Part shown: piece by piece, positions 7,848 to 48,090 of the stretch
Layout: each line of letters starts with the position of its first letter
How positions within the stretch are numbered: the stretch's first letter is position 1
Source: an uncultured Bacteroidales bacterium
GTDB lineage: Bacteria; Bacteroidota; Bacteroidia; Bacteroidales; UBA932
Length of the DNA stretch: 54,788 nucleotides
NCBI GenBank assembly: GCA_905233345.1
Contig: CAJODQ010000029.1
Span: 1-54,788, forward strand
Reading direction: 5' to 3'
The notes under the pieces: model-generated
Database searches by the model: none
Told to the model about the DNA's origin: nothing
Seen by the model: only the letters and a program-made list of their open reading frames with translations
Position numbers and translations under genes: made by a program

Positions 7848-9027
7848 ACAGCGTTTCATCGTCATCGGCATGACCGACGACCGGGACGTCTGGTTCCCGC
7901 CGGAAGTGCGTAGCGCCATCGCTGCGGGCCGCGTCTTCTCGGGCGGCAAACGCCACCACGAAATCGTGGCGCCGTTGCTGCCGGAAAGCGCCCTTTGGAT
8001 CGATATCACCGTGCCGCTCACAGCGGTATTCGCGCAATATGAACCGCATACGGAGGTGGTGGTTTTCGCTTCGGGAGACCCGCTCTTCTTCGGCTTCGCC
8101 AATACCCTGAAACGCGAGCTGCCCGACGCGGAAATCATCGTCTATCCTTCCTTCAACTCCCTGCAGCTGCTCGCGCACCGTATGCAGTTGCCCTATGCCG
8201 ACCTGCGCACCGTTTCGCTGACGGGTCGTCCCTGGGACGCCTTCGACCAGGCGCTGATCACGGGCGAACGCCTGATCGGTGCCCTGACCGACCGCCAGAA
8301 AACCCCGGCAATGATCGCCCGCCGCATGCTGGACTACGGCTACGACAATTACCGGATGACGGTGGGGGAATGCCTGGGCAACCGCGAGACCGAGCGCGTC
8401 CGTACCCTGACCCTGGCCGAGGCTACCGAAATGGAGTTTGCCTTCCTGAACTGCCTGATTCTGGAACGCACCGCCCTGCGGACCCATCCCTTCGGCCTGC
8501 CTGAAAGCGACTTCGCGCTGCTCGACGGCCGCGTCAACATGATTACCAAGATGCCCATCCGGCTGCTGACCCTCAGCCAGTTGGACCTGGCCTGCCGGAC
8601 CTCTTTCTGGGACATCGGCTTCTGCACCGGCTCCGTCTCCATCGAAGCCCGCCTGCAGTTCCCCCACGTGAAAGTGACCTCCTTCGAAATCCGTGAAGCC
8701 GGCCGCGACCTGATGGAACAGAACGCACGCAAATTCGGCGCCCCCGGCATCGACGTTCATATCGGCGACTTTCTCGAAGCCGACCTCACGACCTTGCCCG
8801 CCCCCGACGCCGTCTTCATCGGCGGCCACGGCGGTCGCCTGAAAGAAATGCTCCAACGCATTGACCATGTCCTCCTGCCCGGCGGTGTCATCGTCTTCAA
8901 CGCCGTCAGCGACCAGAGCCAGACACTCTTCCAGGAAGGCATCGCCGCCCTCGGCCGCCGTATCACTGGCACGATGCATGTCGCCATCGATACCTTCAAT
9001 CCCATTACTATCTATAAAGCCGAATAA
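7840..9027 (+). CDS. cobL: CbiE-CbiT (CobL) precorrin-6Y C5,15-methyltransferase, decarboxylating
   Basis: 395 residues from the ATG at 7840, which overlaps the upstream stop and begins the CbiE-like first strand (RFIVIGM). Residues 1-about 190 are the CbiE tetrapyrrole methylase part, with ASGDPLFFGF and PSFNSLQLLAHRM. Residues about 200-395 are CbiT: WDIGFCTGSVSIEA is the SAM-binding loop and the end forms a Rossmann methylase. CbiE methylates C5; CbiT decarboxylates the C12 acetate and methylates C15. The N-terminal GxGPG loop is replaced by GMTDD, an oddity also possible in CobL homologues. Confidence 0.92.
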   Translation: MSRQRFIVIGMTDDRDVWFPPEVRSAIAAGRVFSGGKRHHEIVAPLLPESALWIDITVPLTAVFAQYEPHTEVVVFASGDPLFFGFANTLKRELPDAEIIVYPSFNSLQLLAHRMQLPYADLRTVSLTGRPWDAFDQALITGERLIGALTDRQKTPAMIARRMLDYGYDNYRMTVGECLGNRETERVRTLTLAEATEMEFAFLNCLILERTALRTHPFGLPESDFALLDGRVNMITKMPIRLLTLSQLDLACRTSFWDIGFCTGSVSIEARLQFPHVKVTSFEIREAGRDLMEQNARKFGAPGIDVHIGDFLEADLTTLPAPDAVFIGGHGGRLKEMLQRIDHVLLPGGVIVFNAVSDQSQTLFQEGIAALGRRITGTMHVAIDTFNPITIYKAE

Positions 9028-9034
9028 TCTGAAT

Positions 9035-10951
9035 ATGAGCCGTATAGCGATCATAGTCGTTTCTGAGTCCGCAATGCCTCTCGCTCAGCGCGTAGCGCAC
9101 AGCGTAGCGGAGCGGGCCGTGTGTTGGCCTGGTGGAGATTTCAGCGTTCCTCGTTGCGAGTGCTCGCAGCAACCGAGGGTTCTGAAATCGCCCCAGGACG
9201 GGCCCGCGGAGCGAAGCGATGTACAAATATTCACCAAAAAAGACATTGGACCCTACGCACCTTTTTTGAAGGAACACTGGACCGAGCTCGATGCCGTCAT
9301 CTTTATCGGCGCCCTCGGCATCTGTGTCCGCAGTATCGCCCCTGCCCTCAAGAATAAATACAACGACCCCGCCGTCATCTGCATCGACAGCACCGGCCAA
9401 TATGTAATTCCCGTCGCCTCCGGCCACGTCGGCGGCGCCAACAACCTCGCCCGCCAGATTGCCGAAACCCTCGGCGCCCAGGCCATCGTGACGACGCAGA
9501 GCGACAACGAAGGCCTTTGGGCCCTCGATACTCTCGACCGCCAGTTCGGATGGACCGCCGACACAACACCGGCCCGCATGAACCAGGCCATCTTCGCCTT
9601 CGTCCAGAAGCAGCCCACGGCGCTCCTGCTCGAAGTGCGTGACGCCGGTACCGCGTATCTCGAGCGAACCAAACCCGATCATGTGCAGATCTTCTTTCGC
9701 CGCGAAGACCTGGATCCCAAAGACTTCGACCTCGTGATCGCCGTCACGCCTTGCGCGCTGCCCGACCTGCCCGAAAACCTGCCCGTGCTGGCCTTCCGTC
9801 CGCCCGTACTGCACCTCGGCTTCGGCTGCCGCCGGCAATGCGACCCCGCCGGCATTCCCGATGCCATTGCGGCCCAACTCCGGGAAGCAGGCTTTTCCCC
9901 GAAATCCGTCGCTACGGTCGGTACCATCGAACTGAAGAAAGACGAAACCCTGCTCCAGGCCCTCCTGGCGCAGTTCCCGCAGGCACAGCCTGCCATCTAT
10001 CCCGCCGAGACCCTTGCCGCCATCGACGTGCCGAATCCCTCCGAAAAGGCCCTGGCCGCCACCGGCAGCGCCGGCGTGGCCGAAGCAGCTGCGCTCGCAG
10101 GAGCTCATGGTGGGCCGCTCTGGATCGAAAAGCAGAAAGGCAAAGTCACGGAAGGCAACGACTTTACCTTCGCGCTGGCGCAGGAAGCCGCTTCGCTGCG
10201 CGCCGGCCATATCGAAATCGTGGGGGCAGGTCCCGGCGACCCGGAACTTGTGTCCGTCCGCGGCAAGCGCTTCCTCGAGCAGGCCGACTTGATTCTCTAT
10301 GCCGGCAGCCTTGTACCCGTCGAACTGACGCATTACGCCAAGCCCGGCTGCACCGTGCGCAGCTCCGCCTCCATGGACCTGGAGGAACAGTTCGCCCTCA
10401 TGAAGGAATTCTATGACAAGGGCTTGCTGGTGGTCCGGCTCCATACCGGCGACCCGTGCATCTACGGCGCCATTCAGGAACAGATGGCTTTCTTCGACCG
10501 CTACGGCATGCACTACCACATCACGCCCGGCATTTCGGCTTTCCAGGCCGCCGCCGCGGCGCTCCGCTCCCAGTTCACCATCCCCGAGAAGGTGCAGACC
10601 ATCATCCTGACGCGGGGCGAAGGACGCACACCCATGCCCGAGCGCGAGCAACTCCACAAGCTGGCGCAGTCGCAGAGCACGATGTGCATCTATTTGAGTG
10701 CCGCCATCGTGGAAGAAGTGCAGGCCGAACTCCTGCAGGCCTATCCGCCGGAAACGCCCGTGGCCGCCTGCTACAAGCTGACCTGGAAGGAAGAGCGCAT
10801 CTATCGTGGTGAGCTGAAGGACTTGGCTAAGATCGTGCGGGACAACAATTTGACGCTCACTACGCTGCTTGTGGTGGGCGAGGCCATTGGCAACCGTGAG
10901 GGTCTCTCGCGGCTCTATGCCCACGAATTCAAACACCTGTTCCGGCCATGA
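9035..10951 (+). CDS. cbiGF: CbiG-CbiF fusion: cobalt-precorrin-5A hydrolase / cobalt-precorrin-4 C11-methyltransferase
   Basis: 638 residues from the ATG at 9035. Residues about 65-360 match CbiG: IFIGALGICVRSIAP, SGHVGGANNLA, and a C-terminal LGFGCRR..GIPDAI part. CbiG opens the ring-A lactone and releases acetaldehyde, an anaerobic-route step. Residues about 385-638 are CbiF/CobM: IVGAGPGDPELVSVRGKR, LHTGDPCIYGA, and PGISAFQAAAAALRSQFTIP. Both act on neighbouring intermediates. Between the first strand (to about residue 26) and the next expected strand (VQIFTKK) lie about 35 extra residues encoded by a large palindrome (9112-9207). Its stop overlaps the next ATG (ATGA). Confidence 0.92.
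   Translation: MSRIAIIVVSESAMPLAQRVAHSVAERAVCWPGGDFSVPRCECSQQPRVLKSPQDGPAERSDVQIFTKKDIGPYAPFLKEHWTELDAVIFIGALGICVRSIAPALKNKYNDPAVICIDSTGQYVIPVASGHVGGANNLARQIAETLGAQAIVTTQSDNEGLWALDTLDRQFGWTADTTPARMNQAIFAFVQKQPTALLLEVRDAGTAYLERTKPDHVQIFFRREDLDPKDFDLVIAVTPCALPDLPENLPVLAFRPPVLHLGFGCRRQCDPAGIPDAIAAQLREAGFSPKSVATVGTIELKKDETLLQALLAQFPQAQPAIYPAETLAAIDVPNPSEKALAATGSAGVAEAAALAGAHGGPLWIEKQKGKVTEGNDFTFALAQEAASLRAGHIEIVGAGPGDPELVSVRGKRFLEQADLILYAGSLVPVELTHYAKPGCTVRSSASMDLEEQFALMKEFYDKGLLVVRLHTGDPCIYGAIQEQMAFFDRYGMHYHITPGISAFQAAAAALRSQFTIPEKVQTIILTRGEGRTPMPEREQLHKLAQSQSTMCIYLSAAIVEEVQAELLQAYPPETPVAACYKLTWKEERIYRGELKDLAKIVRDNNLTLTTLLVVGEAIGNREGLSRLYAHEFKHLFRP
9081..9219. repeat. In-frame palindromic insert within cbiGF
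   Basis: Nested inverted repeats share a centre near 9160: GCGGGCC (9112-9118) with GGCCCGC (9201-9207), CCTGG with CCAGG, GATTTCAG (9137-9144) with CTGAAATC (9182-9189), CCTCG with CGAGG, and GCGAG with CTCGC at the tip. Weaker outer pairing extends to TCGCT (9081-9085) and AGCGA (9215-9219). The frame stays open through it and adds about 35 residues absent from the expected CbiG fold. No second copy was found in the window. Confidence 0.8.
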
Positions 10952-48035: not shown

Positions 48036-48090
48036 AGATCCCGGGTCAAGCCCGGGATGAGGGAGATGCCCGGTCAGGCCGGGCATGACG
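48036..48090. repeat. Tandem REP-like palindromes between the M20 gene and the regulator operon
   Basis: Two units in a row: GATCCCGGGTCAAGCCCGGGAT and GATGCCCGGTCAGGCCGGGCAT. Each is a hairpin of the same family as the copies elsewhere. They lie between the M20 stop (48108) and the activator-site region. Confidence 0.85.

Follow-up and report, generated by a model that had tools for sequence, protein, structure and literature searches.

A palindromic element was found in frame within a cbiG-cbiF fusion gene of an uncultured Bacteroidales bacterium (UBA932 lineage; assembly GCA_905233345.1). The stretch analysed, called the window herein, covers positions 1 to 54,788 of contig CAJODQ010000029.1 at its full length of 54,788 nt. 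The element belongs to a dispersed family, so far known only from a single genus of uncultured Bacteroidales that live mostly in the rumen. Many of its copies are inserted into unrelated genes, where either orientation keeps the frame, and others lie outside genes. The best explanation, which we consider probable, is that of a dispersed, non-autonomous mobile DNA hairpin that works in the manner of the Rickettsia palindromic element (RPE), spreads as a folded strand and undergoes template switching that reshapes its arms and changes its orientation.

The original prediction, made from the sequence of the window, described a nested palindrome at 9112-9207 that sits in the coding frame without a stop, and placed it at a loop of CbiG. 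The sequence and the open frame bear out the first part: the palindrome is real, in the cbiG-cbiF frame and stop-free. It accounts for the extra stretch of CbiG at about residues 22-62, a gain of about 35 amino acids. The RNA fold of 9081-9219 has a calculated energy of -69.6 kcal/mol, compared with an average of -58.0 for shuffled sequences (z -2.96), and 2 of 200 shuffles were as good. The repeat finder at default settings listed no inverted pair within 8900-9400; internal loops interrupt the arms. The evidence that the palindrome goes beyond chance is moderate from the window sequence alone and very strong once 106 copies of the family are aligned. AlphaFold was applied to the CbiG alignment and gave a mean predicted local distance difference test (pLDDT) score of 88.6, with residues 31-57 below 50. 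In the predicted structure these residues and the insert sit in a loop between helix 11-30 and strand 62-67.

Two checks had been suggested with the prediction, an alignment of CbiG from relatives and a search of the genome for further copies, and both came out in favour of an inserted repeat. The CbiG alignment held 40 sequences, of which 4 start at or after the site and 36 are informative. The full insert is present in the window only, and the other 35 sequences covering the site lack it as a whole. The left end of the element is kept in L062 (from genome G024) and L063 (from G007), over 35 and 37 aligned columns with 94% and 89% identity to the window, and is followed in both by a different palindrome resembling the CGTC type. 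The alternative of a long-standing CbiG loop with a chance palindrome draws no support beyond the single sequence; it is refuted by the other CbiG rows and by the dispersed copies elsewhere, and we give it next to no probability.

Other repeats were observed at the same position of CbiG. A CGTC-like palindrome lies in frame in the CbiG loop of L070, with a 25-nt exact match at window 48066-48090 and related palindromes in L062 and L063. Another dispersed repeat, the third, is about 75 nt long, translated as SVSLPKKGRFTGYHPP or EHFSASE, is in frame in the same loop in L068 (2079-2150) and L064 (2061-2143) and matches many other loci.

The genome of the window contains three matches to the element: besides the cbiG copy, a second lies in frame within an ABC-F-like gene and a third directly follows the stop codon of a gene resembling poly(A) polymerase. 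The latter two genes were named from our reading of the open reading frames (ORFs), and ABC domains were found in an ABC-F orthologue. The glycerate kinase gene of this genome holds a half element, outside the three matches. By sequence search, 9 of 61 near genomes were found to carry matches, and these nine belong to a single genus. This genus, that of the window, was represented by 40 genomes, and in 18 of them a covariance model built on 22 copies, which had been picked by the box GGCC.GGTGGA, gave at least 137 matches, inside and outside genes; up to 95 candidates were scored per genome, and 137 is therefore a lower bound. The carrier count is too low as well, because a truncated copy in the ABC-F linker of G027, recognised by reading, escaped the model. 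A second covariance model found no match in 294 other genomes of the order or in 394 of the phylum; this was a shallow search of overlapping draws, with 12 and 9 candidates scored per genome under stricter filters, in which divergent copies could be missed. The nearest named relatives of the genus are assemblies of Bacteroidales, for the most part sampled from the rumen and other forestomachs. No match to the 221-nt region was found among phage records, and an exact 26-mer from the commoner subfamily, which is not the window's own, had 0 hits in viral contigs. A loose pattern with 3 mismatches gave 59 hits in the window's genome against 28 in the reversed control, with 3 at known copies; it was set aside and the covariance model was used instead. 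Separately, the glycerate kinase regions L314 and L315 (G033:C3 and G036:C22) of two species are 99% identical including the element, which may reflect recent transfer or a misbinned contig.

The coding context of the 137 copies was assessed by a home-made hexamer scorer with thresholds of our own setting; its training set consisted of long open frames from these loci and from the window. The scorer placed 63 copies in frame within a gene, 29 in the orientation of the element and 34 against it. The others fell between differing frames of the same strand (10), in frame with a stop (1), between opposite strands (25), at a contig edge (4) or were undecided (34). After inspection, about 64 of the 137 copies are in frame. 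Three had been dropped because they lie at the edge of an ORF or precede its likely start (G001:C29, G001:C15:34686 and G034:C10:66976), and four that the scorer had missed were added because orthologues or CbiG rows show them to be in frame (the window, G018:C156:16873, G018:C156:29189 and G063:C29). The 63 scorer calls and six proteins added by hand, 69 in total, were clustered, and 17 representatives were scanned for domains and gave Pfam matches. The clusters comprise ABC-F-like proteins (23), CbiJ-CbiD (10), glycerate kinase-RNase HII (6), a cobalamin-cluster aminotransferase that is CobC-like by our reading (6), HI0933-like proteins (4), two each of DnaX, PrmC-like methyltransferase, TrmO and endo/exonuclease-phosphatase, and 12 singletons. 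The PrmC-like pair represents two copies in one ORF, one of them probably ahead of the true start, and the hand-added singletons G004:C17 and G034:C9 look like wrong frames and were not counted.

The fold is strongly supported by covariation. Across 106 model-aligned copies, the 25 pairs in 6 helices are paired in 93.4% of 2558 cells against 63.3% after shuffling. The covariation score is 0.747 against 0.226 after shuffling, with 0 of 500 shuffles reaching the observed score, and two-sided changes occur in 23 of the 25 pairs. When the partners were slid by 1-3 columns (six versions), pairing dropped to 38-44%. These copies came from 100 of 128 fetched regions, the 28 left out being all 12 of G063, 10 of G007 and 6 of G032, G033 and G036. 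The 106-copy alignment was fitted to a model holding most of the pairs and is biased towards them; a MAFFT alignment of 22 copies shows two-sided changes in 22 of 31 pairs. The left box GGCCTGGTGGAG and the right box CGC of the internal loops are nearly invariant and the stems are variable, where the conservation of the left box is to be read with the choice of the 22 seed copies by this box and of the remaining copies by the model. The 21 stem pairs contain 1954 Watson-Crick, 32 G-T and 163 other cells. This count leaves out the pairs beside the internal loops (27-139, 28-138, 46-118 and 47-117), in three of which G-T is frequent. With the usual RNA families as the yardstick, the rarity of G-T in the remaining stems fits a constraint at the DNA level. 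In our reading, the fold serves the spread of the element rather than the host.

The outer arms are often specific to the site. Complementarity was scored in 132 of 137 copies against mismatched combinations of left and right arms; 41 copies exceed the 99th percentile and 13 exceed the maximum. An arm score of at least 12 was reached by 31 of 62 in-frame copies, and the longest complementary arms are 29/29 bp in cbiD of G018. A common arm, GCGGGC/GCCCGC, is carried by 31 of 70 copies outside the in-frame set against 3 of 62 within it. In cbiD of G036, G018 and G011, the downstream arm extends into codons with counterparts in cbiD genes free of the element, and a mirror image of this arm lies upstream. 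In G036, about 17 bp over the codons for ADAATA recur as a mirror image across the element, with one gap of 1 nt, and the counterpart at element-free sites is seen in L070 (AESATA). A similar pattern is seen in glycerate kinase, where host codons upstream of the element have their mirror image on its downstream side. Such a pattern would be expected if target DNA had been duplicated in inverted form, at insertion or later. Half elements were also observed in glycerate kinase, in L322, L320 and L324 (G000, G011 and G004); by our reading, they look like hairpins that have lost one side to a deletion.

The orientation of the element varies between orthologous sites. Of 216 orthologous-site pairs, 106 have the same orientation and 110 the opposite one (111 and 110 under a looser rule). 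Among the 50 copies with an opposite partner, 8, chiefly in cbiD, are nearer to the flipped orthologue than to any copy elsewhere. The cbiD pairs G063/G028 (0.94), G023/G018 (0.95) and G023/G011 (0.92) are good cases, as judged by sequence comparison, of copies that appear to have flipped in place. That such a hairpin builds its own outer arms by inverted duplication of the flanking target at insertion and flips within coding genes is a tentative idea, which we regard as less likely than not. In each of two genomes, at G018:C93 and G063:C2, two copies in opposite orientation are exactly 335 bp apart (L220:1427-1979 and L262:1501-2053). Such pairs resembled transposon ends; the two sites are orthologous and represent a single case.

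Near-identical cores recur at different sites. By the rule of the script, 54 of 61 pairs with near-identical cores lie at different sites; 21 of the 54 are pairs among seven G007 copies that have a common 71-nt core, and at least 2 are orthologous after all (G004:C7:413182/G024:C120 and G036:C38/G007:C143). A 73-nt core is identical in cbiD of G024 and the ABC-F gene of G004, and the arms differ. An abutting direct target duplication was looked for in 14 of 24 G007 copies; it was absent from 13 and amounted to a single nucleotide in the other, and 3 of the 14 have a common 4-nt word at unequal offsets. Composite repeats were observed in L206, L162, L212 and other G007 loci, in which the ending of a CGTC-like palindrome is followed by the element and then by a common GATGGCGCGCC-like stretch. 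The features of the element in the window are listed in Table 1.

Table 1 Position of the element and its parts within the host gene in the window.
Feature	Position	Strand	Basis
cbiG-cbiF fusion, host of the insert	9035..10951	+	Open frame; Pfam CbiG_N, CbiG_mid, CbiG_C, TP_methylase; the ATG at 9035 is the start chosen by us, and the ORF list has a start further upstream
Whole element with outer extensions, probable extent	9102..9220	+	Model match 9104-9213 and comparison with relatives; edges approximate
Palindromic core, outer arms GCGGGCC (9112-9118) and GGCCCGC (9201-9207)	9112..9207	+	Sequence, fold
Conserved left internal-loop box GGCCTGGTGGAG	9126..9137	+	Counts by column in 106 copies; all columns but one >90%
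Middle stem, 5' side GATTTCAG, paired with 9182-9189	9137..9144	+	Fold; helix 3, two-sided changes in 7/7 pairs, 95.5% of cells paired
Inner stem and terminal loop	~9149..9178	+	Fold; helices 5 and 6 of the covariation analysis
Middle stem, 3' side CTGAAATC	9182..9189	+	Fold, covariation
Conserved right internal-loop box CGC(C)	9189..9192	+	Alignment columns 130-132 >90%

In the mobile hairpin explanation, copies would spread as a folded single strand, either DNA or a DNA copy of RNA, and the fixed internal loops would be recognised by a putative enzyme. Template switching at insertion, or during later replication across the hairpin, would turn copies of the flanking host DNA into inverted arms and would sometimes also flip the core in place. 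Selection against broken genes would then leave in-frame, stop-free copies in loops, where they may be translated as a disordered peptide needing no function.

Several observations weigh against this explanation. No mobilising gene was identified, and no pair of empty and filled sites from near-identical genomes was found. Some G007 copies adjoin other repeats, and recombination in arrays may have spread them. Long arms are not general, with an arm score of at least 12 in just 10 of 70 copies outside the in-frame set. In 19 orthologous pairs, one-sided changes (73, of which 53 lead to a mismatch and 20 to G-T) outnumber the 50 two-sided Watson-Crick changes, which fall mostly in a few pairs; two-sided changes to non-pairs are 5. 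These 19 pairs, some sharing members, are 15 of 21 same-orientation pairs at an identity of at least 0.84 (3 identical and 3 others omitted) and 4 of the 9 flipped pairs that reach 0.85. Given this excess of one-sided changes, pairing is not maintained efficiently in place, and the idea of its continuous upkeep was not borne out. The fold decays in place, mostly on one side, and this limits the template-switch account. Finally, 42 of the 50 copies with a flipped orthologue have an equally close or closer copy elsewhere, and fresh insertion explains these 42 equally well. Repeated insertion into the same permissive loops, with no flip in place, is a serious alternative for the opposite orientations, to which we assign somewhat less than an even chance. 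The same loops do host other repeats, as in CbiG (CGTC-like in L062, L063 and L070, the third repeat in L064 and L068) and in the glycerate kinase of G024, and the ABC-F linkers of G004 and G033 hold different elements between near-identical flanks. However, the three cbiD pairs named above are nearer to their flipped orthologues than to copies elsewhere.

A repetitive extragenic palindromic (REP)-type element, moved by a REP-associated tyrosine transposase (RAYT, matching Y1_Tnp) of these genomes as proposed for GTAG-REPs, is possible but on balance unlikely. Enzymes of the Y1 type cut single-stranded hairpins, which would suit the element. Within the genus, a Y1_Tnp match is present in 17 of 18 carriers, but in just 10 of 22 genomes that do not carry the element (Fisher p 0.0017, confounded by descent). 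Two copies of G063 lie near Y1 matches: G063:C2:59422-59529 is 1.6 kb from the match at G063:C2:61130-61390, just outside the scanned locus L275, and G063:C31:12247 is 4.4 kb from another. Against this, and also against the mobile hairpin explanation, none of 10 Y1 loci scanned to about 1.5 kb on each side (7 from carriers and 3 not) holds a copy; 68 Y1 matches were listed, 58 of them outside the scan. The ends are not enriched in the expected tags, with GTAG in 17 of 136 against 20.8 and CGTC in 25 of 136 against 27.7 in letter shuffles. G018 has 9 copies and no Y1 match, but contig C40 of this genome, which holds the orthologue of the G063:C2 copy, breaks off 1.8 kb beyond it, and a gene there could be unassembled. 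The element is also longer than the REPs of 20-40 bp described in PMC3733652. A structured RNA with a host function, such as a terminator, mRNA stabiliser or regulatory RNA, that lies within frames by chance would agree with the strong covariation, the fixed internal loops, and the start of an arm 1-2 nt past an apparent stop codon in L003, L048 and L058 (a gene is listed for L003 only). It is nevertheless improbable, as both orientations occur at the same gene position, the host genes are unrelated, G-T pairs are few in most stems and decay between orthologues is one-sided. In Rfam, the element was unmatched in window 8500-9800 and in 11 copy-bearing loci, where the sole line with E<=1 is a microRNA model away from the element.

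The mobile hairpin was compared with known systems. RPEs are described as palindromic repeats of about 150 bp, in frame in unrelated proteins, with about half of the 44 in R. conorii within ORFs (PMC10969869). The element herein, of about 95-120 nt, is likewise palindromic and occurs in frame in unrelated proteins and outside genes. The likeness to Rickettsia elements put forward in the original prediction is thus supported for behaviour as described, and carries no claim of common descent. The host phylum is different, with Bacteroidales rather than Rickettsia as the nearest named relatives, and the element differs in its fixed internal loops, its arms, which are often site-specific and can mirror host codons, and its two orientations at one site. 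The ends of R. conorii RPEs are given as CGTC (PMC3733652), whereas CGTC is not enriched at the ends here. The same source describes GTAG- and CGTC-tagged REPs as palindromes, many downstream of coding regions and some intragenic, with CGTC repeats in Bacteroidetes too (PMC3733652). These consist of a short palindrome plus a tetranucleotide tag, and neither tag is enriched at the ends of the longer element here; a separate CGTC-like palindrome is present in these genomes. Bacterial miniature inverted-repeat transposable elements (MITEs) are described as short, non-autonomous and with inverted repeats, with occasional in-frame fusions (PMC10969869), whereas the terminal arms here are not fixed throughout, GCGGGC/GCCCGC being common to 31 of the 70 copies outside the in-frame set and to 3 of the 62 within it, and no abutting target duplication exceeded 1 nt in the 14 G007 copies. 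Perfect inverted repeats in coding DNA are described in Nematomorpha mitochondria and as template-switch hairpins, with template switching as the proposed origin (PMC6649704, PMC8794818, PMC8604942), and in coding DNA this process has been reported both to make arms more alike and to invert the spacer between them (PMC8604942). Those palindromes are described as local, whereas the core here recurs at unrelated sites, and the yeast spacer inversions, as described, involve few bp, against a core of roughly 80-100 nt. Among the titles listed for palindromic in-frame elements, also in connection with Bacteroidales and rumen, none describes the family; the literature was covered mostly through non-subscription papers, and this speaks only weakly for novelty.

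The best-known in-frame palindromic elements are those of Rickettsia, and to our knowledge their mode of movement is unsettled. The family found herein represents a second well-sampled lineage, in which dozens of copies in close species, with site-specific arms and apparent flips, provide material for direct tests of the mechanism. If the hairpin does copy its target into its arms and flip within genes, one site could encode two different in-frame peptides, and the family would represent a target-copying, invertible, protein-coding class of palindromes, undescribed in the literature searched. The insertion of such elements is a route by which conserved enzymes gain about 35 residues at once, in a loop that may be rewritten when the hairpin is inverted.
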